This document shows positions 14,831 through 56,145 of a DNA stretch of 64,000 nucleotides, piece by piece (the first letter of the stretch is position 1; each line of letters opens with the position of its first letter). This DNA is from Hydractinia symbiolongicarpus (lineage: Eukaryota; Cnidaria; Hydrozoa; Anthoathecata; Hydractiniidae): contig NC_079878.1 in the NCBI RefSeq assembly GCF_029227915.1, positions 11,534,001 through 11,598,000 of the forward strand, read 5' to 3'. The position numbers were made by a program, and so were the translations under genes. The notes under the pieces were generated by a model. That model saw only the letters and a program-made list of their open reading frames with translations, was not told the DNA's origin and ran no database searches.

Positions 14831-14836
14831 GAATAA

Positions 14837-15175: not shown

Positions 15176-15199
15176 ATTTTGCTAAAAATAATACTTAAT

Positions 15200-15460: not shown

Positions 15461-15495
15461 ACCGTCCAATAATATTTATATTTGCCGCTAGGGCA

Positions 15496-16057: not shown

Positions 16058-16063
16058 TTTTAT

Positions 16064-17093: not shown

Positions 17094-17118
17094 ACAAACG
17101 ATCTACCTTTTGAGATGA

Positions 17119-18051
17119 CAAAAAAGAAGATGTCATCTGAAAAGGTTGTTACGCTGCTTGCCTGACGAGGATTGTGAGGCCCCATGGTTCAAAAGAGCTG
17201 ATATTGTTAGGCTTTTGGGTATTGTAAGGAATAAAACATCATACAGAGATATTAAAGGACAACGTAGGGATAAAATTTCTCAATCATCCTCGTCCCGATT
17301 AGGTATGCTGGGAAGAGGAAAAAATGGGCATGATATATTTATTTCTGCCGAAGTCGTCAAGGAAATCCTGGTTCGATGAAAAATCTTGGAAGCTATTAAA
17401 ATTGCGAGGCGTTGTGGTATGGAAATCCAAAACATAAAGCTTTCATCCAAGGAGGAAGGCACCCTTTAGAACAATGAATCAAGTATTGGAAATTGTGCGT
17501 AGGTCAAAAAAGTATAAAGCGGTGGGGCTAATCAAATGGCTGACCCGGGCGGGCATTCAAAAATTACAGCATATAATTAAGGAGCATCGTCAAGCCCTTC
17601 CTTACTAGGTGATGAAATCGAGGATAGGGACAACCAACTCCTGGCACTCAGGGATGAGCTCGAGGATAGAGATGAAAAACTTAGTGCCCTTAAACAAGAC
17701 GACTCGGAACTACGGCATAGGCATGCTCCACATCGATATTAATATGATACGGTGCTATGCGTGGCTGATAAAAAACGATCCTCACGAGCATGGAAAAAAA
17801 GTATACATAAGCACTATATGATCCGATGCCAGCGTAGACAACTCAGTGCAAGAATAAACACGTTAAAAGCAATGTACCCCGAGATGACTGTAACGAAACG
17901 ATAATGTGATGATCTGAATGCCGTACATGCCTGGTGCCGATTCAGAGACGATACCCTAGGTACCGAAAATTGTTACCTAAATCACTTCACGTTGCCCGAT
18001 GGTGATACACGGGATCTATTTGAAGGGATGTTTGATATTGACATGTCGTAG
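17119..18051 (+). pseudogene. Bro-N/MSV199-like protein with coiled coil, broken
   Basis: ATG 17119 leads through a frameshift into PWFKRADIVRLLGIVRNKTS, the start of a Bro-N/MSV199-like DNA-binding fold, followed by RDKISQ and GKNGHDIFISAEVVKEIL. After a stop at 17377-17379 a coiled-coil segment EDRDNQLLALRDELEDRDEK lies at about 17625-17690. A C-terminal domain of the DUF3627 type reads MIRCQRRQLSARINTLKAMY, then NAVHAWCRFRD and TRDLFEGMFDIDM, ending at TAG 18051. At least four disruptions are present. In iridoviruses, poxviruses and phages such proteins are thought to regulate viral or host transcription; here it is the last plus-strand gene before the integrase. Confidence 0.6.
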
Positions 18052-18191
18052 GCAGATTACTACTCTTGCAGGGTAGTGAAAATTATTTTGCTGAAAGGAG
18101 GTGGTGGCACTGACTCCTTGTAGGAGTTATGCCAACTGTACCGGGCGGGCACAGTAGTTCAGGTATGCTAATTGAGAGGCTTACCAATCCT

Positions 18192-19154
18192 TCACATGTT
18201 CTGGACAAGCATCAATTCCTCAGACACAAAGCTTTATTCAGGACCGTCTTTTAAATAGTACAGCACGCGACTACCTGCTACTATACGGTCCAACCTATAG
18301 GTTTTCTTGCTCCAAAAGGCGTCAGTGGCGCGTCTCTTTTGATCACCGTGTTCCTCTCCGATTGGCAGGAAGTACACAAATAAACCATCCTCGGTTAGGG
18401 GTCTCTCTTCTGGATATTCCTTTTTTTTCGCGAGCGGCACCTCATCGAGTTTGATTGCTTTGCTAGGTTTAATATCGATCATACCAGTCTTTGTATTGTT
18501 GAGACCCTTCACCATGGTATACAGATGCTTGACCCAAGTGCTTCACGTCTCGTTAGAAACCAATTCTTGTGCATCTTGCGGTTTGAAGAGTATTTCTGCA
18601 AAATTTGTAAGATTCCACAAGGGCCGTGTGGTGATATTTAGTGGTGGCACGTTTATTCTCAACTCTCTTATCCTCCATCAGCTTGGTTACATCCGATTTG
18701 TATTCGGAACCATTGTCTCACTGAAAAAACTTTAGGTATTGTAAAGGTCCGGCATTGTCAATGTCCTTTATCATCCCTGTGACCTAGTTAGCTTTCTTTT
18801 TTTCTTAGGGGCCTCGCTACCTTAACCTTGAAGCTACGTCAATCCCCGCCAGGATGTATTTATATGTACTACCGTACAAACGATCGTGGGGCATGTACAA
18901 TAGACTAAACTGATGCATCTCATTCGGTCTTGTAATTGTGAAGTGCGGATAATCGATACGTTTTGGGCCCCTGATGTGCCTGAGCCAGACCAGCTGCCTG
19001 GATAGCCAGTGAGTGACCTTCTTTTAGGAGAGACCACTCTCCTTTGCAAGCAATCCGATAGCTTTCCGTCCAGTCCACAAATGTCCAGGGTATAATAGAT
19101 ATTACTGAGATTTTCAGCCTCTTCCTCTGTAAAAATGTGTGAAGTTTTTGACAT
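18192..19154 (-). pseudogene. Polinton retroviral-type integrase, many stops
   Basis: Starts at ATG 19154 (MSKTSHIFTEEEAENLSNIYY) and after an early shift reads on through PHFTITRPNEMHQFSLLYMP. The rve catalytic core shows the first Asp in YILAGIDVASR (about 18830-18860), the second in DNGSEYKSDVTKLM (about 18670-18720) and the Glu in HHTALVESYKF (about 18600-18630). The C-terminal chromo/SH3-like part is KKKEYPEERPLTEDGLF to KKTYRLDRIVAGSRVLYYL. An in-frame TAA at 18234-18236 is followed by a tail reaching TGA 18192-18194. I count at least five in-frame stops plus frame changes. The enzyme inserted the element into host DNA; this copy is inactive. Confidence 0.88.
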
Positions 19155-19191
19155 GTCGTCTTTATTATATACATGTTAAAAATGCACGTTG

Positions 19192-19595
19192 TTACAAAGA
19201 TTTGTAAGCTACGAAGCGTAGCAGGGACAATGAGCCAACAACGAAGGCCAATTCCCCATCCTGTTGCTGAGGAGAAGGGGTGTAAAAATCCTTCAACTGC
19301 GGAGCTTTTTTGTCCGAGTTGATGTAAAATTGATACATGTCGTTGTCCAGGTCCCGAAGGCTCTTACCCGCCTGGATTTGCATCTCTCTTTGTTCTTTGA
19401 ACCAGTCAAGTTTAGCCTGCCTTTTCCTGATCCATTGGGACTGAGATGCATTAAGCTTTTCAGCGGCCTCATCGTGTCTTTTCCTCTCGGCTTTGCCGTG
19501 CCCTGAGAGCTTAGAAAATAGATAATTCGTTCCGAAGAATGCGAGGGCGTTGATTAGCGCGCCCCCTTCATGATCATAAGAGTAGCCATTTTATT
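19192..19595 (-). pseudogene. Polinton small virion-type protein with C-terminal hydrophobic tail
   Basis: ATG at about 19593 opens MATLMIMKG and a one-base shift in a G run (about 19560) moves to the main frame: ALINALAFFGTNYLFSKLSG, an amphipathic basic middle (KRHDEAAEKLNASQSQWIRK), a linker with DFYTPSPQQQDGE and the hydrophobic end LAFVVGSLSLLRFVAYKSL, stopping at 19192. The arrangement, a Gly/Ala-rich N-terminal helix followed by a helical middle and a terminal anchor, recurs next to the capsid gene in cnidarian Polintons. It could be a membrane-active or minor virion protein; that is inference. Confidence 0.55.
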
Positions 19596-19670
19596 TCAGT
19601 ACTCCACACCATCGAGCCTACTATCCAGGATATTCATTTGCGCGTCCATAAGGAGATATACATAACGTGT

Positions 19671-20917
19671 CTAATCTCCGGTTCCGTCTGCCTTCATTGT
19701 GATATGTAGGGTAATCCCATCAGACAGACGTTGCAATGGTCTTCCGCTACCATGCAAAATATTGTCGGGGAATGTCCTAATGTCGATAAACAGAGCATAC
19801 CTCTCTGTCATGAACTTCCCAATTGTAACGTTAGAACCATGGGCACCAAAAATATTGAAAATCTGTTCAAGGTGGTCCTTGGGGAACATGGCATGGCTAT
19901 ACAGTTCATTAAGTTCCCCTTCCATTGTTACGCTTACACTCTCAATTTTCGGGTTGTATACGAAGTCATTGACACTGGCATAGGGCTTCATTTTCCCAGG
20001 GTGCATGAACATTAGCAAAACACCTTCCAAGGACTTGGCGGGAGTGTCAATTTGGAGGTTATACGAAGTATCAGCCTTATTATCTTGACTATTTTGCTAC
20101 GGAGTATCCGTTCATAAGCCATTGTCAATCTTGCATACCGTGACATCATAGCACTTGCCAGGCCTTCATGACTCACTTTGTCAAACTCGAGCTTGATGTT
20201 GGTAATTTTGTAGGCAGCATCGGCCACCTTGGCTGCCGTGCTTCTCGAGGCCGCCGTCCCTGCATCCTTAATGACGTCACAATGTGGCGCAAAATGTAGG
20301 ACTAACTACCATCGGTCATATAAGCCCGCTGGATGAAAATGTAAGTCATGGGTTAATTTAAACATCTTACCAAGGGGGATTAAAAACATGTTGCCATAAG
20401 CCGTAACAATCGCGTTTTCTTCATCCGTCCCGACGTGATCACTGACTTTGACTTGTAGGGCTGTAATGGTCCCATCGTTGGGTTTGATCCCCTTGAGAAT
20501 GAGGTTATTGTCACGGTCAACTTTGGGCAGCCAGAGATCCCGGTACACTGCCAGGATATTATAATCCGATATATTCTGGATCTCTTTACAATTAAGCGGT
20601 ATGCGTAGATTTCTTCTAAGGCTTTTACCTATACTCGACACGATCGTACGCTTTATGTTGGTACCTGTCAGCGTCAGGTCGAACAGAAGCTTGAGACTAC
20701 CCGGAAAAATGACATCATTCTGTGGCATGTTGGGGATATCCACATTGAGGTCTTCGTTCTGAATAATGGTTGAGGGTATGTGAGATATCTGAACACGTTG
20801 ACGACGGCCTTTTACACCCAGGAGCTGCTTCGTTTCCGCATAGGGATCAGTATGGTTCCAAATGCATTCATATTTATTATATAGGGGATTTTTAAAAAAA
20901 GATGCTGATGAACCCAA
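19671..20917 (-). pseudogene. Polinton major capsid protein (double jelly-roll), frameshifted
   Basis: The N-terminal part, ATG 20917 to 20306, contains VDIPNMPQNDVIFPGSLKLL, then YNILAVYRDLWLPKVDRDNN and ENAIVTAYGNMFLIPLGKMF, strongly like Polinton/adintovirus capsid proteins. After a break near 20300 the second half resumes with YKITNIKLEFDKVSHEGLAS (about 20150-20220). Another shift near 20030 leads to the C-terminal part with FVYNPKIESVSVTMEGELNE and RYALFIDIRTFPDNILHGSG, ending at 19671. Length (about 415 codons) and order match a double jelly-roll protein. It would build the capsid shell; here at least two shifts disable it. It is transcribed away from the coiled-coil gene starting near 20935, so the gap between them should hold a divergent promoter. 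Confidence 0.85.
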
Positions 20918-20934
20918 TATTCACACATGAGGAT

Positions 20935-22122
20935 GATATAGGTAGGGATGATAGGGGTGTTAAGGGTGATAAGGAAGATACCCAACAATCGACGCAACTC
21001 CCTGGAACATCGGGGTCTTGAACGCCAGGTCAGCAGCAGGGAGGTGCGCGTAGGCGATTGGGGTTGGGCACAGAGTCGGCCGGGGACATGCTATTTAGAT
21101 CGAAGGTTGATAGCTTATACACGAATCTTAGGGATGGGATGGGATTGACGCCCAATGCGATACATAGGGATATATTTAGAATCGGGGTGATTGACGAACT
21201 TATTATTAAAAACATTGCTAGGAGGAAGGAAATCTTAACGTAAAAAGTACTCACCTTGGAGAATGGTACCTTCCCAACTATTAAACAGCTCAAAAAGAGA
21301 CTGGGTAGTACGCGTATGAAGGCCATAGGGTTTTATAAATATCAAACACCCAACAAGGGTAGCAAGCCAGAGGAGGGTGAGATAATTCAAATGGAAACAA
21401 TGCAAGTTATACAAAATTTTGCATATGATGTAAAGGGTTTTGTAGATACTTCATTTGCTGGTATCGATCATGAGGAGGATATTAATATAGGAGGATTAAA
21501 ATCCGAAATGGAAACCTTGCAGAATAATATCAAGGAATTGAAGGGTAAAATTATTTCATATGATAGCGAAATCAAGACGAAGGAGGGTAGGCTGAAAGAA
21601 CTCAAAAAGCACAAGGCTGGGGTGCGAAGGCTTCAGGACATTGCCGATCTTAAGAAGGAGATTGATAAATTGAAGAAGGATAGGAAGGTTGCACTGGGTA
21701 GGCATAGTCTACTTTCCTCCGATACTTTTAAGCATCTGAAGAATATTAAGTCCGAGTTGATGAAGATTGCCGGGGATGATATGCTTTTGCTGGAGAAACT
21801 TAAAACCCTTTTCCGGGAGCAGGGGATAACTATGGCGAGTATCGTCTCTGCTATTGGTCTATTGATAAGCACTATTGTACTCTCCGTTACAGAGGAAAGC
21901 GCCGGGGGTACTGCAGGAGGAAGTGCCACAGGAGGTAATGGAAAAGGGTTCGTACAAAAGCAACTTGAGAGGCTTGGGAACTTCCTGAAATATCTTGCTG
22001 CCTTACCCGGTATCATCAGTACGGTAGTCTCCTTCCTTCTGAGGGTAGCATCAACTATCGTGGAATACGCGGCCAAGTATCGTGCTATACGTGAGGAAAT
22101 AGCCTATTTAAGCCATATATAG
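20935..22122 (+). pseudogene. Polinton coiled-coil protein with Gly-rich linker and membrane segments
   Basis: The frame can be read from about 20935, crosses in-frame stops near 21018 and at 21241-21243, then stays open for 288 codons to TAG 22122. Early residues (DMLFRSKVDSLYTNLRDGMG) and TFPTIKQLKKRLGSTRMKA are followed by a long coiled coil (ENLQ-type heptads, about 21510-21700, ending KKEIDKLKKDRK). Near 21820 REQGITMASIVSAIGLLIST begins a hydrophobic helix, then a Gly/Ala/Ser linker, then a second hydrophobic region (YLAALPGIISTVVSFLLRVA). Proteins ending REQG(V/I)T-x-ASI-x-x-AIG are common in cnidarian Polintons but have no proven role; a spike or membrane-penetration protein is possible. 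Confidence 0.65.
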
Positions 22123-22176
22123 GCAACGATGATGTCTGCTCCTATCGTGATTAATGCGACCTTGCTATCCTCCGTG

Positions 22177-22717
22177 TTAATTTTGTGGGGGTTGTTCGGG
22201 TATAGGAGTATGTTTTGGAGGCGTAGTATGTTTGGGAGATATGGATGCTATAGGCTGTTTAGTATGATCGGGAGTATGTATAGGAGGTATAGGAGGTGTA
22301 CTATGCCTAGGAGGTATAGCAGGTTTAGTATGCTTGAGGGGTTCGGCATGCCTCACAATAGGCTTGTTATTTAAATCAAGCTGGATGACATTGGCTGGCC
22401 CAGTCACAATGTTGTTGTTATACCCTACAATTTTTCCTATGCGCAAGTTTATGTCAAAAGGCAACATGTACACGCCATGCATAACGGCAAAATTCACCGG
22501 TGTTTTAGCATATTGTAACACCTTCTGGAATTCTGTAATGTCATGCCCTACATTCTTGACCTTCTACCATGGCTTCAAATATTTGCAATAGGATCTGCCT
22601 TGCTGTGAAGTTGTCTGCATCGAGCCTAGAAGGGATGCCTTGGCCCCTGCTTGAGACCCTATCAATAAGACCAGATAAACCCTGATATTCTCGCTTAGCT
22701 TGGTTAGACCTTCCCAT
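22177..22717 (-). pseudogene. Polinton conserved protein with proline-rich tail, unknown function
   Basis: ATG 22717 begins MGRSNQAKREYQGLSGLIDR and continues to DNFTARQILLQIFEAMVEGQ. A stop near 22543 and a shift lead into a second frame: FQKVLQYAKTPVNFAVMHGV, then MLPFDINLRIGKIVGYNNN and a Pro/His/Thr repeat tail (several PPIPP/PKHTPP units), stopping at 22177. The start lies 2 bases past the stop of the gene upstream, so the two are cotranscribed. No family is recognised. The tail repeats also create a misleading Arg/Tyr/Met frame on the other strand. Confidence 0.45.
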
Positions 22718-22718
22718 G

Positions 22719-23135
22719 TTAGGCCCTGACTATGTGGTAATAGACGTGAAATTTAAAAATGGAGTTGAAAAGGGGTACGGAACCCGTCTTGTGCTTGGTA
22801 CAGATGCCTAGGGCCGTTGTGGTGCAGTGTGTTCCAAAATTTACCTGGATATTCCAGTAGTCCAAGGCCTGCCCTTTCCACCCCAGTTGAACGAGGTCAT
22901 CAAGGTAGATTGTTGGAAACCTGATAACATACTTCGTAAACTCCGGAAATACCACTGAAATATGGGAGTCTGTACTCACGTACAGGTCCTGGTGCTCCAA
23001 ATTTGTAATACCAAGTGGCAATTCTCCCCCGTTACTTTTGCATTTTGCCGGGGGATTATATTTGTATATGTTCTTCTTTGTTATAAAACAAAAGGATATG
23101 AAACAACTGTATATTACAGATATCAGGAAACCCAC
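22719..23135 (-). CDS. Polinton minus-strand protein, possible minor virion protein
   Basis: An open frame of 138 codons ends at 22719. The convincing part begins around KSNGGELPLGITNLEHQDLY (about 23040) and reads through VVFPEFTKYVIRFPTIYLDD, WKGQALDYWNIQVNFGTHC and FKFHVYYHIVRA. Its beta-rich composition would suit a jelly-roll or similar. The upstream hydrophobic residues overlap the start of the opposite-strand gene and are probably not part of it, so the real start is unclear. It is followed immediately by the Pro-rich protein gene. Confidence 0.45.
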   Translation of the reverse strand: MGFLISVIYSCFISFCFITKKNIYKYNPPAKCKSNGGELPLGITNLEHQDLYVSTDSHISVVFPEFTKYVIRFPTIYLDDLVQLGWKGQALDYWNIQVNFGTHCTTTALGICTKHKTGSVPLFNSIFKFHVYYHIVRA

Positions 23136-23657
23136 GATATTTGAAGACTACCTTGGACAAGATAGTAGGATAGCTCTGAAATCCATCAGTATCAGACCCG
23201 GATTTGTATAGTAATAACGAGCTTACTATATGTAAGGTGGGGCCTGACCAGAGGGTGACCCGTATCGAGATTATAAACGGTCTGTACAGGATAGAAGATA
23301 CTGCGGGTATCGCCAATAGCCAATCAGAAGATAAGATCAAACTGTTCGTCCTGAAATCTGGCTACTGCAGGCTTTTTGTCAGCGATGGGTACACGGTGGT
23401 GATTAACAGACCCCTACAGGAGCTTTTGGGCTCCTGTAGGGGTCCTACGACCCCGCAAAAAATACTACACGAGCGGTGACTACGATGCTCTATACAGGAC
23501 TGATATTTACAATAGGTTAAAACTCGTTTGTCCACAGTTAGATGGAGACGACTGCCTGCTCGAGGGTAAAACATCTAAAATCTTGGCCCTGCTTCTCTTC
23601 CGCCATGGAAAGAACGTTACGTTCACCAGCCTTACGATGCATATTCTCATAGAATGA
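23098..23657 (+). pseudogene. Polinton minor-capsid-like protein, frameshifted
   Basis: ATG 23098 gives MKQLYITDIRKPTIFEDYLG and ALKSISIRPGF before stops at about 23209. A second frame continues with NNELTICKV, VTRIEIINGLYRIEDTAGIA and KIKLFVLKSGYCRLFVSDGY to PLQELLG. A third frame carries YYTSGDYDALYRTDIYNRLK and CPQLDGDDCLLEGKTSKILA, ending at 23657. The order fits the second, smaller capsid-type protein (penton-like) of Polintons. A perfect 15-bp inverted repeat (23409-23444) falls exactly where the second frame loses similarity, so it may mark the damaging mutation. Confidence 0.6.
23409..23444. repeat. Perfect 15-bp inverted repeat inside a coding region
   Basis: GACCCCTACAGGAGC is followed by a 6-nt loop and its exact complement. 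It lies inside the minor-capsid-like gene and looks like a local template-switch product rather than a designed terminator, although a transcriptional role cannot be excluded. Confidence 0.7.
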
Positions 23658-24020
23658 ATGAATGATGTACCTAAGCTGTACCTAAATTTACCTAGTGCAC
23701 CTGCGCAAGGCGATATGCAGGATGAAGGACAGGTCTTTAGGTTAAAAAAGATCGAGGAAACAGAACAATATCTCCGGGATTAACACATGGGTTCGCTTCT
23801 GCGACCATGGATTGCTTGGCGTTAGGGTATTTACGTCTGGATTGGGGATAGGAGCTATGGCCTCAGGTATAGAGTCCCCTTGGCATGTGTAGCCTGATTA
23901 GCCGCGAAAAGTTATATGCTGCTGAAGGAACAGATGCGACAACGCTTTAATAGGATAGTAAATAGTATTAACAAACAAGCGCGTGCACAGTTAGTTGCCA
24001 GAGGAAGAGAGGAGGGAAGG
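23658..24020 (+). pseudogene. Polinton small conserved protein, broken
   Basis: ATG 23658 follows the previous stop directly. The first frame reads LPSAPAQGDMQDEGQVFRLK and KIEETEQYLRD, then stops at 23781-23783. Similarity-like text continues in another frame (GVRVFTSGLGIGAMASGI, about 23815-23870), and a later frame gives LLKEQMRQRFNRIVNSINKQ to about 24010. The pattern (short acidic N-terminus, Gly/Ala-rich hydrophobic middle, basic helical end) is typical of a small protein near the end of cnidarian Polintons. Function is unknown. Confidence 0.4.
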
Positions 24021-24163
24021 CAAGATGTTTTTTAAAAAAATCAATCTGTGAAGTATGTGAGTGGCACTTCCATTAAGATGCTTTGCTGGTACATTTATTA
24101 TAGTTTTGTTACAACAGGGTTGTAAGATAACGTTTCAAATCACCCCAAAAAAGGTAGCCCCCT

Positions 24164-24526
24164 TCACACATATTTGAGCACCCAGGGCTTCTTTTCAACA
24201 GCCTTGTTACACATGTCTTGAGTCCTGAGATGATCCGGAACATCCTTAAGCCTGGGGTGATTCTTTTCAACAACCCCATTCCACATATCCTGCGTCTTGA
24301 AACGGTCCGAAATATGCTCAAGTATAACAAGATCTTTTTGAACAGCCTTGTTACACATGTCCTATGTCTTGAACCTATCCGGTACATACTTCAGCACCCG
24401 GTGATTCATTTCAATAGCCTTGTTACACATGTCCTGCGTCCTGAGCCTGTCCGGTACATACTCGAGCATATAGGCCTGCTTTTCAACAGCCTTGTTGCAC
24501 ATGTCCTGTGTCTTGAAACAACTCAT
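24164..24526 (-). pseudogene. Short-repeat protein (DUF4116-like), one stop
   Basis: From ATG 24526 the protein is five copies of a unit of about 24 residues, of the form TQDMCNKAVEKxxxxLxYVPDRL. The repeats are near-perfect; an in-frame TAG (24362-24364) replaces Gln in the third, and the frame ends at TGA 24164. A TATATATAA stretch lies just before the start. Such arrays resemble DUF4116 repeats found in some viral, bacterial and cnidarian mobile proteins; their function is unknown. It faces the right terminal repeat. Confidence 0.65.
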
Positions 24527-24576
24527 TTATATATACACATTTCAAAAAATTTATAGGATTACACAGTTAATCCCCT

Positions 24577-24838
24577 TTTTACTGCGCATGCGTTGATTTT
24601 TAAGGAATATTAGTATCATTAGGGGATTCCCCCTGTATGCGCGTAGAATATTATGGGAAATTGCGCTAGAAGTTTTTTGATCTTTTATTCTACAGATGAC
24701 GTCATCACTTTATAGGGACTTTACCCCGCTAGGCATGGCTAAGCATGGTATGGTGCGGCAGGGTGCTGGATTTGTTGTGACGTAACTGTTGTACACGCAC
24801 GCGACTGAGCCAGAAGGAACATTTCCCTATCTCTAGCT
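24577..24838. repeat. Polinton right terminal inverted repeat
   Basis: Reverse complement of the left repeat with scattered substitutions, for example TACTGCGCATGCGTTGATT at its inner end and GCCAGAAGGAACATTTCCC near its outer end. The substitution level between the two arms indicates they diverged after insertion. Confidence 0.93.
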
Positions 24839-38550: not shown

Positions 38551-40440
38551 TCAAGCAAAGCAACCATGCAGAAAAAGTGTGCAGAAAGGTCAAAGACTCC
38601 ATCATTGGTAGTACCCTATCAAATTAGATATTGCCATGCGCATTCCTTTGTGAGGTGAAATGCAAATTTATGTACTCAAAATGATAAATTGTATGCACCA
38701 AAATACCCTTTTGAGCCTGATTCTCTCTTTCTTTTAGTTTTTAAAAACGTGTAGGCATGAAAATTATATTTCAAATGACAGATTTCCTTTTACCACAAAG
38801 AAATAATTTGAGAATAGTTAGTCAGTAACAGAACTATTATCTCATTTAAATTTGTCTAGAATTTATTACAGACGTAAAAACATTCAAGTTTTATTTAGTA
38901 ATGATCATGAGAACCTACTTATCACGTACCGAAAATAACAAAGTGTAAAACCACTGAAGATTACTGCGACCAAACGTGGGATGTGCACATGGCTATTTTT
39001 ATTGCGTCGAAATACCGTGGAAACACTTTAAGCCAGAAATTTTTATGATTAAAACGCGATCTCTAGGGCATAATTTTAATTTTCCATTTCGCAAATAAAA
39101 AACGGGAAGTGTTTTGCATACAAGTAAGAATGTAGGAATAAATTAAAAATTCTGATACATTTTTTGAATTTTTATAGAAAATTCCGATTAATTTAAAAAA
39201 AATCAGTCATTTTTAGCTATATGTGTTTAGAATAAGTTTACGGTCATCGTAACTTTTGAAAGACAGGAAAGTTGAGCATTTAATAGATTTATCACATCTT
39301 AAAATACGAGTTATTGCAAAGGCGTTAATTGACAGGAGCAACAGATGTTATCTAAACATCAAAGGTTAAAGAATCATGAGGTATCAATGAGAAAGATAAT
39401 ATTTAGAACTGCACTATTTCCTGCAAAGTATTGTTACGTAAATATCCAATTATTTGTTTCTATCCAAAATGTTTCATAACAGGTTTCAAACACGTCTAAA
39501 AATCTGCCGTAGTCTTAAGGCATGTGGATGCATAATAAGCGGTAGATGTTTCGATAATTTAGTGGCATCACTACATGAGTGTGCACATTACCCTGAAAAA
39601 CGAAGGGTTATAGTAAAAACACCTGCCAATCAAGTAGGTATTTCTTGTTTTATGCCAAAACACACTGTGAAACAAGGACTATTGATTTTATGAGATTTAT
39701 ATCGTTCTAGCATTGGTTGGGATTTGTACCTTGGCGCTTGCCGAAGATGTAAAACCGGATACCACACACGAAACCACTGATCTTGAATATTCTACATACT
39801 TCAGAACATGTAAGTTCTTCTTTTTGTATTTTGATAACAAATTGCCTCAACTGCTTTAGCTGGCTAGTACTGCAGAAAGTAATTTTAAAACGTACCTTAC
39901 ATTACTTTATAGTTGGACCTTACAAATGTTGTCGCTCTGCAACACACTATTGCTACTGAAACAAACTTTACAGCAGAAAATAGTATCGATATTGCGGAAA
40001 AAACATCTACAACATCAGAAGTCATTTCTGCTTCCGAAGACGCGTCTACGCAAATACCGTATTTGTGGCTACCGTGTTTGTAACAGACGTACTCAGTTTT
40101 GCTGGAAGAGAAGGTGCTACTCAAAGAGATGGTACAGAAACTGCAGATATGGTGTTTGCAACAAACACATAATTTTGTTGGAGTTGTATATTCTACTTGA
40201 AAAAATCGTACGGGATCTGTGGCTATGTTGTTTTTCCCCAGCGAACACATTTTTGTCACCGTCACCAATGCTACAACAAGAAGTTGTACGGCTATTGTGA
40301 AAAATCCATCTACAGAAAAAGTAGCTACAGATGTTACTGCAACAAACCTCAACCACACAAACCATACTAAATGAAATGTAAATTTTATCATGTTTCTGTT
40401 AAATATACAAAAATGAGCATTTAAAAGCTGTTTCAACTTT
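38550..40440. repeat. Tandem duplication unit A of the Cys-rich gene locus (degraded)
   Basis: This block carries the oldest copy of the gene plus upstream text similar to the other two units, for example CCTACTTATCACGTACCGAAAAT (38917) against the equivalents at 43248 and 49370, and ACACGTCTAAAA (39490) against ACGTCTAAAATG at 44487. Similarity is much lower than between units B and C. Confidence 0.6.
39690..40370 (+). pseudogene. Cys-rich repeat secreted protein, copy A (dead)
   Basis: The leader exon lines up with those of copies B and C (ALVGICTLALAEDV and then an acidic stretch) but ATG 39690 is out of frame by a one-base deletion. The donor GTAAGT at 39810 and acceptor AG at 39911-39912 are kept. 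In the repeat exon, two stops replace codons early on (after HYCY and after SRK), an 8-base deletion removes part of a degenerate unit, and a later indel destroys the third unit. The end HKPY-type tail and TAA 40368-40370 are kept. No TATA box comparable to the other copies is seen. This is a clear pseudogene of the same family. Confidence 0.85.
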
Positions 40441-44603: not shown

Positions 44604-44610
44604 TATATAA
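44604..44610 (+). promoter_or_regulatory. TATA box of copy B
   Basis: TATATAA within AAAGGTATATAACGGGG, conserved at the same place in copy C (TATAAAA). It lies 65 bases before a good splice donor (CAG/GTAAG at 44669/44670), so a short non-coding first exon starting near 44635 is likely. Confidence 0.6.
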
Positions 44611-44754
44611 CGGGGAAAATATCATGCAGTTTTACATTGTGTCCCTGAGAGACAAAAGTATAGAAACAGGTAAGTGCATCTACTTTTTTTAACTACGACG
44701 AAATCTTGTGTTACACGACGGTTATTATTATACAACAAAATCTTTTCATAGAGA

Positions 44755-45529
44755 ATGAAGCTGTACATAGCTCTTGCATTGATCGGCATTTGCGCTTTTG
44801 CGCTTGCAGAAGAAGTAGAACAGGATAACACCAGCGAATCAATTGATCTTGAAGATCCCACTTACTACAGAAGATGTAAGTTCTTTGTTTATAGTTTTTA
44901 TAGGGAGTTTACTCAGTGTCTTCCGGTGGCCGTACCAACTGGAATTATGTAGTTATTAGATTTTTCCTACTTTTCTTCTTCTAGGTGGACCATACAGGCG
45001 CTATAGCTCTGCAACCCACTATTGCTACCGAAACAAACTTTATAGTAGAAAATACTATAGATATTGCGGAAAAAACATCTACAACATCAGAAGTCACTTC
45101 TGCTTCCGAAGACGCGTCTATGCAAAGAGGTATTACCGTATCTGTGGTTACCGTGTTTGTAACAGACGTACTCAGTTTTGCTGGAAGAAAAGATGCTACT
45201 CAAAAAGATGGTACCACATATGTGGATATAAAGTATGCAACAAACATACTCAATTCTGTTGGAGACGTCGATGCTACTCGAAGAGATGGTATAAAATCTG
45301 TGGTTATGCTGTTTGCAACAAGCACACGCAATTTTGTTGGAGACGTAGATGCTACTTGAAAAGATGGTACAGAATCTGTGGATATGGGGTTTGTGACAAG
45401 CGAACACATTTCTGTCACCGACGTCGATGTTACAGCAAAAAATTGTACGGCTACTGCGGAAAGTCTTTCTACCGAAAAAGTAGCTACCGATGTTACTACA
45501 ATAAACTTCGACGAAACAAGCCATATTAG
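44755..45529 (+). CDS. Secreted cationic Cys-rich repeat protein, copy B (two coding exons)
   Basis: Coding exons are 44755-44875 and 44985-45529; the intron has GTAAGT and a TTCTTCTTCTAG acceptor, and the split codon (T/GT) makes Cys. A 5 prime non-coding exon probably ends at 44669. The protein has 221 residues. Residues 1-18 are a signal peptide (MKLYIALALIGICAFALA); residues 19-40 are acidic and end in the dibasic RR, a likely cleavage site. The rest is seven repeats of about 26 residues: four canonical units of the form C-x4-C-x6-C-x4-C-x8 (for example CGYRVCNRRTQFCWKKRC) and three degenerate ones keeping only the first and third Cys. The mature part has 22 Cys and is rich in Arg, Lys and Tyr. 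It is predicted to be secreted or stored in vesicles. An antimicrobial, venom or structural role is possible; none is shown. Confidence 0.85.
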
Positions 45530-45650
45530 ATGACAATTGTAACTTTTATTATAGGTGTTGGTCAAATATAAACAAAAGGAGCATTTAAAAGCTCTTTGTA
45601 TTTATTTTTACCTATCATATTCTCCTTTAACTTCTTGGTCCAGTGAAATG

Positions 45651-46980
45651 TCCTTAAACACGCAATAAAATCATGTATGCAATTTTTACAATCTACAATT
45701 TAACTTTGCAGTACTTTGTATCTTACATCAAGTAAGCCAACTATGGGTACCAGTAATCTATGTTACAAATTTCTTTGGTAAGAATACAATTACTCCATAT
45801 TCTAAAGTATTTAGTCTTTCCCGCTGGAGGCATGACATGGTTGTCTTAGGCTGATGTCAAAAGCAGTTAAGAATTCATCATGGCATAAAATAGAACGTTT
45901 CAGAAGGTATTACTTTTACGGGTGTTGTAAAAACGAAAAATGAACTATTCGTTTTTAATCTTAAGGATAACTTATTATATGACTTATTAGTCTTACCCCT
46001 ATTCGGTCCAAGGTTGGGGAGAGGGCTGATTCCGATCCCCCCTGCCGTTTTTTTATTAATAACTGTTTTTTCTATGTTGCTTGGTTATGATACTTAATGA
46101 GTTTTTTATTTATCTATTAAGCACCTGTATGCGAAATATTTGGGTCCCATCCGCTCGGCGTTTTAGATATTAGCTATTACTCGAAATTATCCCTAAAAAT
46201 CCAGCAAAGAGAAATACACATGCTGTTTTCTAAGTACGCTGTAGTTCTTTGCACTTTGTAGGTGCGTGTTCATAATCACTGCAATTAATTAATAACACAA
46301 TTAGAGCTCTGAACCAGCTCTTGTCGAAAAGAAGTTGAGTAGTTCTTCAGTTCACGTAGGGTTAACCTTGTTGATGCGATTTTTTAAAGTTGGAATATCC
46401 ATGTTATATTTTATACAATTTCCGAATAAAATTTAAATGGCGGTTTTAATACGCACATATTCGTGTAAACAAAGTCGACATTTGACTCCAGGTTGAGCAT
46501 ATCGTTTGGCAGATACTCAGTTGAAAGAACAATAGACGCCACGTTTTAAATAGACTGCGTGGCTGCGTCACATTATTTCTTGCGGAGCAAAAGTGATTTT
46601 GATGATATATTACAGTAAATTTATTGAGGTGAGAAAAACAACAAGATTAACTTCAATTCTGTTTGTTTCTAGTTAATGAAAATTTCATCGAGCTTATAAA
46701 AATAGCAGGCCCTTTTAGAACATTGATTTTTGTAAAAAAAGACATTTATAATTTACCTTGAATGTACTAAAATGTGTTACTACTTAAATAGGAACAGAAC
46801 ACTTGAGCACACACAAAAACGGCGAAAAGCTTTAAATATTCGATTTACTTTACAATTCGGTAAGAACCAAAAAAATTCTCTGTTTTATCATACACTGCTT
46901 CTTCTGCTAATGTTAAACTGACATCTGCATAACAGTTACGCAGAACCACTCTAAGTAAAGACCGTTTTAGTACGCGTATG
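45651..46980. other. Gene-free stretch between duplication units
   Basis: Nothing supportable is seen. A polyadenylation-like AATAAA occurs near 45665, downstream of copy B. Confidence 0.35.
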
Positions 46981-48790
46981 TTAACATATGGAATACACCT
47001 TGTCCAACAGGTAGGTGACCTACGAAATTGGTGAATGGTAAATCTGTGTAGCAGTGGTAGTGGTACAAATGGCACTGTGTGTCTATAATAACAATACGAA
47101 TTGCTAAAATGCGCATCTGGAATAAGAATACGAGATTGTCAGCCTTTTGCATCGGTTATTCATTTTAATGACGTCGTTACGAACTTATCCCCATTAGGTC
47201 GCATTGTATTTTTCGAATCGGACTGGCTGTTGCTACACTTCAAATTTATACGACATGTTCTTTATACAGAATTATTAACAACTTTTGCCTGATAATTTTT
47301 GTGCCTTACAAGCTAATTAGGGATTATAAAGTTTAAATTACATGCTTAAATACTTTGACATAACAGATGATTTTCTACTCCTTGACATAATTTTAAGAAA
47401 AGTGTTGGTGAAGGTATAGTTTTTCAAAAGATCTAATTAGGCGATTCAAAATTCATGTTATTAAGAATTCAATCAGAAAGTGAACAGCAACAGGGTTACT
47501 TTAATACACGAAGCACTGTCATCTTCTGGTTTGAAGTATTGAGTGTTGTGCCTTTGTTGTGTCTGTGAAATAAGCATCAAAGTTCAATGTTTTTAGTTAA
47601 TTTAATTGTTTTAAAAAAATCCTTTTTTGTTTATTGAAATACTTCTTATTCGTAGCATCTAACTTCGTAATTGTTAACAAATTTCGTGTTTAGTGTTAGT
47701 GCATCAAATGGCAGGAAGAAAAATAATTACAGTCCTGAGTTTAAATTCATTTGCCGATTATATTGTTTTAGGCTAAGTAAACTTTTGTTATCAACATTAC
47801 TTCGTATAAAGTTAAGATTTTAGCCATTTTTTTGTCATCATTTTTATGTGAATATAAGGAAATTATCGCTAAGAATTCCATTGATGTGCCAGTTCGATAT
47901 TAGAAAAGCGTCTTTTTTCTGAGAAAAATGAAAGTTTGAAAAACCGTCATCACCATATTATGCCACAAGGCAGTTTATATCTTAACATACTATAATGTTT
48001 TTTGAATTACTTCACAAGTACTCTTTTTCCTATCAATGCAGACAGGCTATAACGAGGCATCTTTGCGTTCTTCTCTGTTATTTTAACTTCCTTTTTCCTA
48101 ATTTTTAGAAACTGCAGGCTTTAAGTGTGTGCTTTGTTTATATTTGATTTCTAATTTGCAACCTCAGGTGCATTGATTTTTGGGGCATCTAGGGTCACCT
48201 ACTGATTTTATTCAGCTTATCTAATGACGCTAAGCGGAGTTGAACCAGTTGCTAAAGAATGAAACCAATATTCAAATCAAACTGAACACAAAATTATTGC
48301 TTACTGTTAGATCATATATTGTTATAGCATTATCTTTCCAATAACCAAGTTTATTAACAAAAAGACGGTCATATCAACTAATCGATTTGTTATTTATAAG
48401 CAAATATTCTTGTAACAAGACTCTTGCATACCTTGAAGCCGAAAAAGCAAAAATAATTGTTTTTATCACTTCTTACTAATACAAACTATAGATATGTCGA
48501 ACTTATTTGACATATTATCTTCCCTGTGAAATAACTAGAGTATATTATCGCTCTAATACCTGGTCCAATACCGCATGAATTTTTCTTTGTTTTTAATATA
48601 AAAGTTTGAAATAGAAAAGGCATATGTGTTCTCTATTGCTCTATAAACGAGGACACATTTCAGTTGGTTAATTTAAAAAGGGCTTTTAATTCATTTCTGT
48701 TTTAATTAATTCAATGAAAAATCTTGCTAATTATCGCAACATGAAAAAAAATTATATTGAAGAAGAACTAATTTGTTCATCACTAACATA

Positions 48791-48869
48791 CTGCCAAGCA
48801 GTGACCGGGATTCGATCCGCGGTCCCCAGAACTGGGAGCCGCAGACGAACTCACTACCCTACGTGCGGC
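48791..48869 (-). repeat. tRNA-like sequence (SINE or tRNA relic)
   Basis: On the minus strand there is a good B box (GGATCGAATCCC) and an A-box-like TAGGGTAGTGAG, but the ends do not form an acceptor stem. This suggests a tRNA-derived SINE head or a dead tRNA rather than a working gene. Confidence 0.4.
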
Positions 48870-48916
48870 AATATGATAGCGATGAACTCAGATAGTTTAT
48901 CCGGATGGTGTGTATA

Positions 48917-49028
48917 CATATAGGTGAATATTTATCATAGCACATCCGTATTTCATTCTCAACATCCGTATTTCATTCTCTATTGAGAATGAAATACGGA
49001 TGTGCTATGATAAATATTCACCTATATG
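48917..49028. repeat. Perfect 44-bp inverted repeat with 24-nt loop
   Basis: The arm 48917-48960 and the arm 48985-49028 are exact complements. The loop contains a second copy of CATCCGTATTTCATTCTC, which is also the inner end of the left arm. Single-stranded, it would fold into a long hairpin with alternative pairing. It lies in unit C only. Confidence 0.9.
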
Positions 49029-50180
49029 AACAGAAATATTTAACGACACAAAAACTTAATAACAAACTGGATCAGCGTAAAAAATTGATTACTTTGTCAC
49101 TTTTTAGTGAGTAGTATCGTTAATTAGTGATCAAGTCATTATTCATTTCTGTCACTAAAGAAGGCATGTTAGGAGGTAACGACAGTTTCTGGCATACGTT
49201 ACAATTGCTTAAAGTTCCTAGATGAGTGCGTTAGTTTAACGGCAATATACTGCTTGACCTATTTGAACCTATTGTCTGTATCTACAAAAAGACCATCCTT
49301 GACATTCTAAAAAAGTTACCCCACAATGTAAAATAAATGTATTGATGGTTAGCTAATGATAAAACGAATCTACTTATCTCGTACTGGATATTTTAATATG
49401 TAAAATATGTCATGATTGGTGACCAGACGTCGAAATGACACATGGTTGCTTCATCAACATTACAATACCACAACTGTTTTTTTGGAATAATTGGATCATA
49501 AAAAATACTATTAGTTTTAGCACTCAAAGAGCGCAGATTAATTGATTCAAACAACCAAAAGTGATATTTTCTCACTTTGTGACGGTTGAATTTGTGACGG
49601 TTCAGCACTTTTAGATAAATTAGTTTTCCTTTCTAATTTTGGAAGGTGAAAGGCGTACTATGGCGTACATAGGGACTGGATAGTCTTAAATCAGCTGATG
49701 GTGACCGATCAGTGCCATGAATTTAAAAAATTATGCATATCTAAGAGGTATGCCCTCCGCATACAAAGCGTTAGCGAGTCAATTTCTCTCTCCGTTTGAA
49801 AAAGTAAAATACTTTTACAAGGAATAGCTACAATAAAGCACAATAAAACAATAGCTGTTTTATCGCCATTTTTCATACATGATAAAGGTTCCGCAAACAG
49901 TAGTCTACAGATTTGCTTATTTTGCAAAATTTTATAGTAACATTTTCCGGCGTACACACAAAAGTAATCCACGTCTGCCTTCATGACAGTCCCGAAATTC
50001 TTGAAAAATATTCGCACTGATATCAGAAACAATTGGGACGGGTCAAGAGTTTAGGACTTTCGATCTTAGAACATTTGATTAAATCGACTTGAAAATCACT
50101 GGCTATCCTATGACAGAACTCTACAACTTACCATCCCTTGCCAAACCTAGCATTACTGACCTAATGGTTGCAAGTTCAGA

Positions 50181-51142
50181 CTCTATCTAACTCTATCAGA
50201 TAACTTCAACAAAGCATATAAAAAAGCTTCTTCTCGTTTACGTCTGTTACAAAATCTGAGAAAGAACATGGACAATAATACTGCCACAACAATTTACAAC
50301 TCTATGATTATACCACTGGTAGTTTTCAACAGTATCATAAATTTGAACTTGTCAAGAACCGAAATAAATAAATTGAATTCTCTGGACAGTCGTGCAAAAC
50401 AGATAACCAAAAACGCAAACATCAAATCAACTTACACTGTTATTTTGCATGCTTGTAAAACGGTGAAGAAATGCATTACTGGTGAAACATGTAGTAACAT
50501 GAAAGAATTAAATTCTCACTCCAAATGCACGAGAAACCAAAACTGTTTGCTGAAGATTCCAAAAATCAAATTGGAAGTAACACGAGGCAGTTTTCGTTAT
50601 ATGGGAGCGAAAATATATAATAGTTTGCCACTAGATATACGAAAAGCGACAACTGTGAATGATTTTAATCAAAAGATCAAAGATTTCGTATTTTAGATTA
50701 TTATTTACCTAATATTTTTACGGTAGTTCTTAATTTTCTTTTTATCAACAGCTCTCTATTTTTGGTCTCGTATTAGTTTTCAACATTTCATTTTCTCACA
50801 TTCGTTTCAATCTATCTAACTATTTATTTTGAAGAACATATTATATTATATAACATGTGCGCAGACTTATCATTTATAGTTTTCTATTTTTAATATATGC
50901 TTAGTAAATTTACCCTTCTCTCTCACATTTGTTTAGATATAGTCTGTTTGGGTATGTTTATAATCTTCTCTGTCTATTATATAAATATTTTTCTTTTGAA
51001 TAGTTTATTTTATATATAATTTATTTTTTAAATCATTACTTTTATATTTTAAACAGGACACATATTTATAGCAGTTTTTTAAAACTGAAATGTACATATC
51101 CTGTATAAATATTCTAATAAATAAAAAAAATATATAAATAGA
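50181..51142 (+). mobile_element. 5 prime-truncated LINE inserted in unit C
   Basis: The insertion is absent from unit B: CAAGTTCA is followed by text that matches again at GATGCAA after the insertion, so the borders are unusually well defined. The coding part is 50188-50696 and encodes the last part of a reverse transcriptase ORF: SDNFNKAYKKASSRLRLLQN, NNTATTIYNSMIIPLVVFNS and FRYMGAKIYNSLPLDIRKAT. The 3 prime end has AATAAATAAAAAAAATATATAAATAG. Confidence 0.85.
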
Positions 51143-51622
51143 TGCAAAATTAATCAATCGAGAATATTTAAGCTGCATTTTTATTTTAGATCGGAAAAAA
51201 TAGTACTTAATCATTTAAATAGATGTCGAACAACGACAATGATCGCACTGTTGTTAGAATATTAGCTACAGATGTAGTCTGTAAGCGACAAGGAAGAAAA
51301 ATGTTTATCATATCACCACCCTTTATTAAAAAAATCAATATTCCGCTGTCAAACTTTTCTTCAATTTTCTTTTAAAGATAATCTTTCATGCGTGCATTAC
51401 ACCGTTAACGAAAAAAACCTTTAATTAGACAAGTGTCACTTCCTGCCCTGCGTTTATTTAAAATATTTTCTTCCCTTGACAATTGATATCAATGGGTTCC
51501 AATACGTCTAAAATGGAACTGTGGTCTTGATAGCCTCATTAAAGCATGTGCTGATATAATTAGCGGTAAATATTTTATTTCATTTATTTTATCTTTTCAT
51601 GATTAAGCACTTTTCAAAAAGG

Positions 51623-51629
51623 TATAAAA
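51623..51629 (+). promoter_or_regulatory. TATA box of copy C
   Basis: TATAAAA in AAAAGGTATAAAACGGGG, at the same position as in copy B and followed by the same short exon and donor (exon end 51688). Confidence 0.6.
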
Positions 51630-51774
51630 CGGGGAAAATATCATGCAGTTTTACATTGTGTCCCTGAGAGGCAATAGTATTGAAACAGGTAAGTGCACCT
51701 ATTTATTCCTTAACTAGGGAGAAATCCAGTGTTACACGACGGTTATTGTTATACAACGACATTTTTTATAGAGA

Positions 51775-52471
51775 ATGAAGCTGTACATAGCTCTTGCATT
51801 GATCGGCATTTGCGCTTTTGCGCTTGCAGAAGAAGTAGAACAGGATAACACCAGCGAATCAATTTATCTTGAAGATCCTACTTACTACAGAAGATGTAAG
51901 TTCTTTGTTTACAGTTTTTATAGGGAGTTTACTCAGTGTCTTCCGGTGGCCGTACCAACTGGAATTATGTAGTTATTAGATTTTTCCTACTTTTCTTCTT
52001 CTAGGTGGACCATACAGGCGCTATAGCTCTGCAACCCACTATTGCTACCGAAACAAACTTTACAGCAGAAAATACTATCGTTATTGCGGAAAAAAAATCT
52101 ACAACATCAGAAGTCACTTCTGCTTCCGAAGACGTGTCTATGCAAAGAGGCATTACCGTATCTGTGGCTACCGTGTTTGTAACAGACGTACTCAGTTTTG
52201 CTGGAAGAGAAGATGCTACTCAAAGAGATGGTATCGCATATGCGGATATGGTGTTTGTAATAAACACACTCAATTCTGTTGGAAACGTAGATGCTATTTG
52301 AAAAAATGGTACAGAGTCTGTGGATATGGTGTTTGTCGAAAGCGTACACATTTCTGTCACCAACGTCGTTGTTACAGCAAAAAATTGTACGGCTATTGCG
52401 GAAGATCTGTCTACCGAAAAAGTAGCTACCGATGTTATTACAACAAACTTCGACGATTTAAGCCTTACTAA
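51775..52471 (+). CDS. Secreted cationic Cys-rich repeat protein, copy C (two coding exons)
   Basis: Coding exons are 51775-51895 and 52005-52471, with the same splice signals and split Cys codon as copy B. It has 195 residues, exactly 26 fewer than copy B: three canonical four-Cys repeats rather than four, with the same degenerate first two units and degenerate last unit. The leader is identical except one residue in the pro-region (Tyr for Asp). The mature part has 18 Cys. Canonical units read, for example, CGYGVCNKHTQFCWKRRC. No stop or shift interrupts it, so it is probably functional. The loss or gain of one 78-bp repeat is best explained by unequal exchange. Confidence 0.85.
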
Positions 52472-55095: not shown

Positions 55096-55369
55096 TTAAA
55101 CGAAATTTTTTAATGCAATTATTCACACATGGTGACCTCTTGAGTTACTATTGATACTGCTTTCAAAGAGGGTCCTGCGAAGGGTTTCCTAGTGTCAGTA
55201 GTCATTTAAAGCTCCCATTTAAGCTACTAAAGTCGTTCAAGCACAGCAATCGCTCAACTAGACAACTGCCTAAGATATCAATGCTATTCTCATTCTACGC
55301 TTTACAACAAAGCTACAAGAGAACAACTAGAATTTGTCAATTATGGTTTGCGTTTAATATTTCCGCCAT

Positions 55370-55905
55370 AATATCGATAGCTATTTCTTAGGCAGACGTA
55401 TCATCCACAATACACGTACAGTTTCCTGTCTTAGCATCTTCGACGGTAGCAAAAGTGAGTTAAACTTGTTGCACACGCGAAGCCAACATACTCCATAATA
55501 TCTCTCCTTGTAACATCTACGTCTCAAACAGAAGTGAGTGTTCTTGTTACAAATACGTTCACCACACACAAAGCGTGCGTGCGTGCTTTTCTATATAGAC
55601 ATGTTTGCGGAAACAGAATTGCTTTTGGATATTTTAGATGTTTCTCCCACAGTTGTATCGTTCAATAACAATAACAATGAGTGGTCGCAGAATTGTAGAC
55701 TTTTTTGAGAGGACCACCTAAGGGTATAGATAAGCTCATAATCGTGGGTAAATCATAAATCATATTTTGTAGCGAGCAGGGTCTTCGGCATCCGTGACTT
55801 CGTCTGTAAGATCCTTTTCTACTTTCTCTAAAAGTGCTAAAGCACAAATGCTAATGAATGCAAAAGCTATAGACAGCCTTATCCTAAATGAAATAGTAGA
55901 AAAAT
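55370..55905 (-). pseudogene. Cys-rich repeat protein, copy D (dead, inverted)
   Basis: On the minus strand the leader (SIAFAFISICALALLEKVEK) corresponds to that of copies B and C, but the ATG is changed to ATA. The repeat exon begins with GGPLKKVYNSATTHCYCY, where the other copies have a similar start, and quickly runs into a stop. Fragments of later units are visible in different frames (CGERICNKNTHFCLRRRCY and THFCYRRRC). Immediately upstream of the leader is a pure trinucleotide microsatellite, so the original promoter and first exon have been replaced or pushed away. Confidence 0.75.
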
Positions 55906-55926: not shown

Positions 55927-56145
55927 TCTTCTTCTTCTTCTTCTTCTTCTTCTTCTTCTTCTTCTTCTTCTTCTTCTTCTTCTTCTTCTTCTTCTTCTTC
56001 TTCTTCTTCTTCTTCTTCTTCTTCTTCTTCTTCTTCTTCTTCTTCTTCTTCTTCTTCTTCTTCTTCTTCTTCTTCTTCTTCTTCTTCTTCTTCTTCTTCT
56101 TCTTCTTCTTCTTCTTCTTCTTCTTCTTCTTCTTCTTCTTCTTCA
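55927..56145. repeat. Long pure (TTC)n microsatellite
   Basis: About 72 uninterrupted TTC units (GAA on the other strand). Reading frames of pure Phe, Ser or Lys here are artefacts. GAA/TTC arrays of this length are known to form triplex structures. Confidence 0.95.

Follow-up and report, generated by a model that had tools for sequence, protein, structure and literature searches.

Genes B and C in the window

The window, a stretch of 64,000 nucleotides of Hydractinia symbiolongicarpus DNA, carries on its forward strand two genes, B and C, each with two coding exons separated by a phase 1 intron. In B, coding exon 1 (44755..44875, ATG at 44755) encodes a signal-like start and an acidic segment (net charge −6) and ends with YYRR plus the first base of a Cys codon, which is interrupted by the GT-AG intron (44876..44984; GTAAGT...TTCTAG). 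Coding exon 2 (44985..45529) encodes seven units with 2-2-4-4-4-4-2 Cys per unit (22 Cys, net charge +52), to give a protein of 221 aa. Within it, a second two-Cys N-cap unit (45065..45142; a-x11-c) is followed by four internal units of the form C-x4-C-x6-C-x4-C-x8 (45143..45454) and by a two-Cys C-terminal cap unit (45455..45526), which has no Carb_bind match, unlike the corresponding end in several paralogues. Gene C, as read from the sequence, has coding exon 1 at 51775..51895, an intron at 51896..52004 that is 99% identical to the B intron, and coding exon 2 at 52005..52471 with six units (2-2-4-4-4-2; 18 Cys, net charge +47), for a protein of 195 aa.

The initial annotation had proposed both this two-coding-exon layout, with junctions at 44875/44985 and 51895/52005, and the C-x4-C-x6-C-x4-C-x8 spacing of the arrays; both were borne out, the layout by the sequence and by models of the paralogues. 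It had further held that exon 2 is easily overlooked because it lacks an ATG and is masked by a longer decoy frame. The missing ATG stands, but the masking was wrong, since from one stop to the next the true frame measures 189 aa in B and 163 aa in C, and the decoy only 124 and 98.

A TATA-like box (TATATAA), a putative promoter element, lies upstream of B on the same strand (44604..44610), and alignment of upstream regions places one at 51623..51629 for C. Among nine aligned upstream regions from cluster copies, such a box is present in seven (L017 and L019 are without it), a GTAAGTG donor in five and an AG just before the ATG in all nine. In B, a putative 5′ UTR intron (44670..44751, forward strand; GTAAGTG...ATAG) would end three bases before the ATG. 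From these sequences a 5′ non-coding leader is likely in the B-like copies, with trans-splicing as an alternative to the 5′ UTR intron in B.

Two broken paralogues, both with approximate limits, were found by tblastn and DNA alignment: copy A (39689..40370, forward strand), with a signal exon and an array containing frameshifts and stops (internal stops appeared in the genome search too), and copy D (55337..55893, reverse strand), which was also recovered in the genome search. The presence of A and D within the window, together with the genome matches, the common models and the pooled pN/pS of 0.22 described below, indicates that the pattern of B and C is more than chance, and we regard it as almost certain that both are real genes.

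Family members, array organization and predicted fold

With B as query, a search of the whole Hydractinia symbiolongicarpus HSymV2.0 genome (E≤0.01) returned 110 matches on five scaffolds. A phase-free script produced 13 models from 16 loci, in all 13 of which the array starts at a Cys split by a phase 1 intron, and a second script with phase 1 imposed produced 25 models from 31 loci. The latter gave no model for L019, L053 and L062-L065; L019 was modelled by the phase-free script, and L062 joined the array-parsing set by hand. Left out of parsing were three loci with an open array for which the script gave no model (L053, L063 and L065), L064 with its broken frame and missing Cys, the fragment L056, the broken L069, the near-copy of L070 located at C4:26.207 Mb, the decayed A, L015, D, L022 and L023, and the D-like pieces of L068 at C4:11.614-11.620 Mb. 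A manual tally over several searches gives about 29 open four-Cys loci in the genome, with 2 to 28 four-Cys units each, and the longest parsed arrays comprise up to 31 units. Judged from sequence, B and C belong to a large Hydractinia family of secreted-looking, cationic proteins with Cys-rich repeats. The initial annotation had already described a secreted-looking, strongly cationic cnidarian family, and the signal-like, hydrophobic N-terminus and the basic array agree with it.

The dibasic end that had been proposed for the acidic pro-region is local and not conserved family-wide: it precedes the array in 8 of the 25 listed models, all from the window's cluster, and in L019, another member of that cluster, the residues at this position are YYRS. 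RXRR, the endoprotease site given for galaxin sensu stricto in PMC6824150, is absent from the last four residues before the array in all 25 listed models.

The units, 26-27 residues long, follow the signal-like N-terminus in a regular order. In 25 of the 27 parsed arrays, four-Cys units are flanked on both sides by one or more two-Cys caps; the two that do not conform are L067, which has two-Cys units throughout, and L059, an exception. Together the 27 arrays contain 190 four-Cys units, 95 two-Cys units and three stray Cys, and the number of Cys is even in all but L059 (39). Adjacent Cys pairs (di-Cys motifs) are absent from the regular-unit spacings of these 27 arrays. The b-d spacing is 11 residues in 189 of the 190 four-Cys units, the a-c spacing is 11 or 12 in all counted units but one (L067 left out), and, with one exception, gain or loss of Cys b goes with that of Cys d. 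From this joint gain and loss we infer a-c and b-d disulfides, and a ladder built of these two pairs is a probable model. The odd Cys number of L059 and single Cys losses in the decayed L064 run against strict b-d pairing.

AlphaFold predicted a ladder of 13-residue hairpins from two input rows (mean pLDDT 83.1) and a hairpin every 13 residues from seven rows taken from those two arrays (mean pLDDT 91.3), although the lowest of the five models per run reached pLDDT 71.6 (two rows) and 49.7 (seven rows) and the program is prone to over-regular solenoids on repeat sequences. The predicted hairpin ladder is a confident but unconfirmed fold. The ladder had no structural match in the PDB at E≤0.001, and a comparison of the B sequence with PDB sequences did not find the four-Cys array. 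Caps combined with so regular a ladder point to a single rigid rod and not to a chain of individual hairpin peptides.

Probable relation to galaxin and Carb_bind

No known family had been recognized in the initial annotation. The four-Cys array indeed lacks a convincing Pfam match, and our literature search found no description of it, but the family is connected to known ones through the paralogue L067 (C11:11.127 Mb). L067 has the same gene architecture, including the split first Cys, and a pre-region with a net charge of 0 despite an acidic stretch. It scores 138.9 bits against the family N-cap profile (0 of 1000 Cys-fixed shuffles as high, best 13.9) and 144.7 bits against the C-cap profile (a score reached by none of the 999 Cys-fixed shuffles reported). 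Because its scores also exceed the Pfam thresholds for Galaxin_repeat (59.8 bits, cut-off 28) and Carb_bind (31.8 bits, cut-off 25), the family is not an orphan. Carb_bind suggests carbohydrate binding here through its name, and we take the profile to be the glucan-binding CBM52.

A genome-wide Carb_bind search gave 22 places, of which the 14 best all belong to this family, including L067 and two broken members, with none of the 14 in the window's cluster; four family loci exceed the cut-off, one of them through the tool's neighbour rule. An isolated C-cap doublet scores 29.9 bits against Carb_bind, and none of nine Cys-fixed shuffles (three caps) matched Carb_bind or Galaxin_repeat. By hmmscan, the seven four-Cys exons that matched in one scan score 16.8 to 22.2 bits, and L024 in another scan scores 17.0, all under the Carb_bind cut-off of 25. 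The window proteins gave no Galaxin_repeat (cut-off 28) or Carb_bind match at E≤10, and the B array minus its first unit gave neither at E≤1. A cysrichin fragment, the positive control, scored 71.4 bits with the galaxin profile. When nine di-Cys galaxin fragments, picked and trimmed by hand among ORFs of the same genome, were scored with the cap profiles, the N-cap profile exceeded all 300 Cys-fixed shuffles for seven, with two within shuffle range, and the C-cap profile did so for three, with the remaining six within shuffle range.

Like the present secreted-looking proteins, galaxins (Pfam PF24748; Galaxea, Acropora, cysrichin) are secreted and built of tandem Cys repeats, each about 26-30 residues long, and the motif given for cysrichin in PMC10045328, C-G-x3-Y-[DN]-x-R-x3-C with 11 residues between Cys, also occurs in the window's second cap unit. 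They differ from the Hydractinia arrays, which lack di-Cys, have a second Cys pair five or six residues off and are strongly cationic, and whose window members miss the Pfam profile. The calculated pI of the family proteins is 9.6-10.3, compared with about 4.5 for the acidic coral galaxins (PMC2726143); some coral relatives carry an acidic domain, and Amgalaxin-like 1 has a basic pI of 9.09. For Carb_bind (Pfam PF10645), the C-cap doublet of the C14, C12 and C11 members covers nearly the whole 49-position model, whereas here the module caps a long array and the window members are unmatched.

It is quite improbable that the likeness to galaxin and Carb_bind reflects convergence, in which Tyr/Gly-rich repeats would share their Cys spacing and nothing more and the family would be a hydrozoan invention. 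Such an origin would fit the failure of the window proteins to match either profile, the galaxin fragments within shuffle range and the statement in PMC6824150 that likeness among galaxin-related proteins is often limited to di-Cys motifs. L067, however, ties the two sides together at scores far beyond those of Cys-fixed shuffles and has the split first Cys, and the Carb_bind genome ranking and the cap shuffle control also speak against it. Since the similarity through L067 to galaxin repeats and Carb_bind exceeds Cys-fixed shuffles, it extends beyond Cys spacing. Relatedness to galaxin and Carb_bind is, on this sequence evidence, highly probable, and the family is most likely an unusual galaxin offshoot, not an unrelated new kind of peptide.

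Pfam matches to Circovir_ORF3, Toxin_28, PH_34 and TraQ were rejected as repeat or composition artefacts (best stretches of 15-37 residues, models of 35-149); apart from the giant arrays L021 and L066 and the trimmed B array (26.8 bits), no sequence brought them over the cut-off. One ORF in the same genome combines a CBM_14 chitin-binding domain with Galaxin repeats.

Candidate roles of the arrays

We propose that each 26-residue unit would form two short β-hairpins joined by the a-c and b-d disulfides, so that an array would be one stiff stapled rod with its length set by the number of units. The Arg/Lys/Tyr/Trp surface of the rod could bind acidic or neutral polysaccharides (candidates are chitin, glucan, glycocalyx and mineral-associated glycans), the acidic segment would maintain its solubility until secretion, and the rod would then act as a cross-linking matrix protein in the outer coat, stolon sheath or skeleton. 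Cationic glycan-binding matrix rods appear to be the most likely role, with an antimicrobial one as the main rival; taken by itself, a matrix or glycan-binding role has about an even chance.

Were the proteins antimicrobial precursors, which seems rather unlikely, cleavage at the dibasic site would remove the acidic segment, and the remaining cationic array, active whole or after cutting at basic sites between units, would kill or bind surface bacteria. The strong net charge of the cluster arrays (+45 to +70 in eight, with Glu absent and Asp ≤0.6%) favours this role, as do the acidic-basic bipartite precursors and clustered paralogues, a pattern of Hydra AMPs (PMC10945409), and the inclusion of galaxin among squid mucus antimicrobials (PMC8547416). 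Against it, the dibasic end is confined to the 8 models from the window's cluster, the strictness of the caps and of the Cys spacing points to a single fold, and arrays reach 31 units. Many AMPs diverge fast, unlike the cluster genes, for which pooled pN/pS is 0.22 (28 pairs from eight of the nine open genes, L013 being absent; the pairs are not independent and gene conversion is likely). The analogy to defence peptides drawn in the initial annotation is weak, given that the dibasic processing site between acidic and basic parts, taken as a defining feature of arminin-like peptides, is unconserved and that caps and ladder suggest one rod. By description, the Hydra AMPs (arminin, periculin, hydramacin, HyCWR) share clustered paralogues and the acidic/basic split, and HyCWR is Cys/Trp-rich like the Hydractinia arrays but has six Cys and, in the description consulted, no array. 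Tachyplesin-type β-hairpin peptides are single short cationic peptides with aromatic/Arg runs, C-x3-C spacing and no caps, so that, again by description, the cationic hairpins are alike but spacing, length and caps differ. SCREPs, the tandem Cys-rich venom repeats of PMC6262176, are also secreted and disulfide-rich, but the examples consulted are known toxin or inhibitor domains with linkers, whereas the Hydractinia arrays are modelled as linker-free 13-residue hairpins.

Still less likely is a nematocyst component, a structural or cargo capsule protein retained by the acidic capsule matrix. Minicollagens and other capsule proteins begin with a signal and pre-region followed by a Cys-rich part, which the present proteins resemble, but Pfam scans gave no nematocyst-family match and we know of no galaxin-type relatives that are capsule proteins. 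In its favour, uncharacterized sequences make up 24.8% of 105 venom-like transcripts in a nematocyst-enriched transcriptome of the same species, according to PMC8917316.

Beyond the matrix role itself, we tentatively suggest, as a possible but doubtful model, that the arrays represent a new class of extracellular rod, in which hairpins stapled by two parallel disulfide ladders would serve as tunable glycan-binding struts of the colony. If so, a second Cys pair would have been added to galaxin/Carb_bind-type units before the expansion in Hydractinia, the rods would be struts of the colony coat or the chitinous-calcareous mat, and galaxin repeats would belong with the Carb_bind module to one ancient superfamily. 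Galaxin was the earliest protein described from coral skeleton, and its role and relationships are unsettled. The family yields a simple disulfide prediction from the co-loss of Cys pairs, offers a bridge from galaxin to a carbohydrate-binding profile and has expanded greatly in a colonial cnidarian that is amenable to genetic work and has calcifiers in its taxonomic family; the disulfide prediction, fold, profile bridge and tractable host make role and structure directly testable. Low-complexity segments rich in Gly/His/Leu or Gly/Tyr/Pro/Gln occur in the pre-regions of five paralogues (L024, L051, L052, L054 and L058) and are compatible with matrix proteins.

Gene structure and genomic distribution

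Copy B (plus strand; ATG at 44755, donor at 44876, acceptor before 44985) encodes a protein of 221 aa, and copy C (plus strand; ATG at 51775, donor at 51896, acceptor before 52005) one of 195 aa. The window sequence bears out the two-exon structures that the initial annotation had placed at 44875/44985 and 51895/52005, and in both genes the first Cys codon is split by a phase-1 intron. The accompanying claim that a longer decoy frame masks the true frame of the second exon failed when the frames of B and C were compared. Two additional copies, A (∼39.69–40.37 kb, plus strand) and D (∼55.89–55.34 kb, minus strand), are broken. Because B and C are 80% identical across 1.5 kb and their introns 99% identical, the comparison suggests recent duplication or conversion.

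Relatives were sought within the H. symbiolongicarpus genome, where the protein sequence of B as query had 110 matches (E≤0.01). These fall in a cluster on scaffold C4 at 11.57–11.67 Mb that overlaps the window, itself at C4:11534001–11598000 (nine open genes in the cluster, the remainder decayed), in a second cluster at C4:26.16–26.29 Mb, and at C4:7.29 and C4:14.17, C11:6.82 and 11.13, C12:19.33 and 19.67, C14:4.44–12.38 and C10:14.54. By our own tally this one genome holds ∼29 open four-Cys loci. Over 28 non-independent pairs among eight genes of the window's cluster, pooled pN/pS was 0.22. With intron phase unconstrained, gene models were obtained for 13 of 16 loci, and in all 13 a phase-1 intron interrupted the codon of the Cys that opens the array; a second script that imposed phase 1 gave models for 25 of 31 loci. 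The six loci without a model under imposed phase 1 include L019, although it was modelled by the phase-free script, L062, L063 and L065, for which signal exons are visible, L053, which is an open array only, and L064, which is broken. Giant arrays were found at L021 (C4:14.17 Mb; 746 residues, 28 units) and L066 (C4:26.28 Mb; 807 residues, 31 units), and the near-identity of internal units within each suggests ongoing homogenisation. Our literature search, with most subscription papers outside its coverage, found no paper describing the four-Cys array.

Array grammar and probable relation to galaxin repeats

We named the Cys slots of a unit a, b, c and d, following the rule a-x4/5-b-x6-c-x4-d-x8. 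The 27 arrays parsed contain 190 units with all four Cys, 95 with a and c only, and 3 stray Cys. In 25 of these arrays the four-Cys units are enclosed by two-Cys units, two at the front (but one in L066) and one or two at the end; the array of L067 (C11:11.127 Mb) consists of ten units, all two-Cys. The sole exception among the 27 is L059, which has b without d and an odd Cys total (39); Cys have been lost singly in broken L064 too, outside the parsed set. In all but one of the 190 four-Cys units (189), 11 residues separate b from d, and the a–c spacing is 11 or 12 in all units counted but one (L067 left out). From the co-occurrence of b and d and these near-constant spacings, we infer that disulfides would join a to c and b to d. 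In a register joining c to the next a, the end Cys would stay unpaired.

Neither Galaxin_repeat (PF24748) nor Carb_bind (PF10645) matched the window proteins at E≤10 in a Pfam scan. The 440-aa exon of L067 scored 59.8 bits against Galaxin_repeat (cut-off 28) and 31.8 bits against Carb_bind (cut-off 25), and its first five units by themselves 38.5 and 30.4 bits, respectively. B as query reaches this exon at E 1.2e-9 in the genome protein search. Against family cap profiles built on 24 models with L067 left out, L067 scored 138.9 bits for the N-cap (best Cys-fixed shuffle 13.9, n=1000) and 144.7 bits for the C-cap (best Cys-fixed shuffle 9.7, 999 reported). As in other members, the codon of the Cys that opens its array is interrupted by a phase-1 intron; the upstream frame combines a signal-like start with an acidic stretch, yet the net charge of the pre-region is 0.

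A Carb_bind search of the whole genome gave 22 places, the best 14 all within the family; these 14 include L067 and the broken loci L056 and L064, but no member of the window's cluster. Four of the 14 pass the cut-off, one of them through the search tool's neighbour rule. As evidence to the contrary, four-Cys exons that match Carb_bind in hmmscan score 16.8 to 22.2 bits, below the cut-off. An isolated cap doublet reached 29.9 bits against Carb_bind and 15.9 bits against Galaxin_repeat, and neither profile matched any of nine Cys-fixed shuffles made from three caps.

For nine di-Cys galaxin fragments hand-picked from the same genome, the N-cap profile exceeded all 300 shuffles in seven and the C-cap profile in three. 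Di-Cys galaxin genes at C13:14.59, 22.25 and 14.84 Mb (L038–L040) have their repeats across many short exons. Like the family, the cysrichin motif printed in PMC10045328 has its Cys spaced by 11 residues and carries C-G-x3-Y-[DN]-x-R; it scored 2.5 bits against the cap profile, with 11 of 2000 Cys-fixed shuffles equally high, and −10.1 bits against the four-Cys profile. A hydrozoan galaxin-related clade has been reported (PMC6824150).

Possible function

The family models have a signal-like start, and charge is split between a pre-region of net −2 to −9 (four-Cys models) and an array of net +22 to +153. Gly-rich low-complexity repeats (HLGN/HLGG or GGYPQ) precede the array in the pre-regions of L024, L052 and L054 (C14), L051 (C11) and L058 (C12). 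At L048 (C9:15.217 Mb), a 452-aa ORF (606–1961) encodes Galaxin repeats (57.4 bits) preceded by a chitin-binding domain of the CBM_14 type (33.0 bits), both above curated cut-offs. Coral galaxin relatives are reported to be skeletal extracellular matrix proteins; coral galaxins have a dibasic site, and galaxin-like proteins an acidic domain, one of these proteins being basic (PMC2726143). Hydractinia stolons are reported to be chitinous, and a mat of calcium carbonate is also described (PMC11876637). Because of the charge split, the Gly-rich pre-regions, the CBM_14–Galaxin ORF, the coral galaxins and the chitin and carbonate of Hydractinia, we favour the reading that these proteins are putative glycan-binding matrix rods, and give it about an even chance. 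They might instead be antimicrobial, which we rank second and consider rather unlikely, or act in the nematocyst, a role that comes third and seems distinctly improbable.

Other features of the window

A perfect TCT trinucleotide run of 72.7 copies (55927–56144) adjoins broken copy D, and between B and C lies a 178-aa frame (50160–50696) that we take to resemble the terminal part of a reverse transcriptase of LINE type. Inverted repeats of 151 nt, 92% complementary and 14.3 kb apart, with long ORFs between them, bound an element (10163–24726) that is presumably Polinton/Maverick-like, and a 436-aa ORF (5767–7077, minus strand) resembles, we assume, a Tigger/jerky-type transposase.
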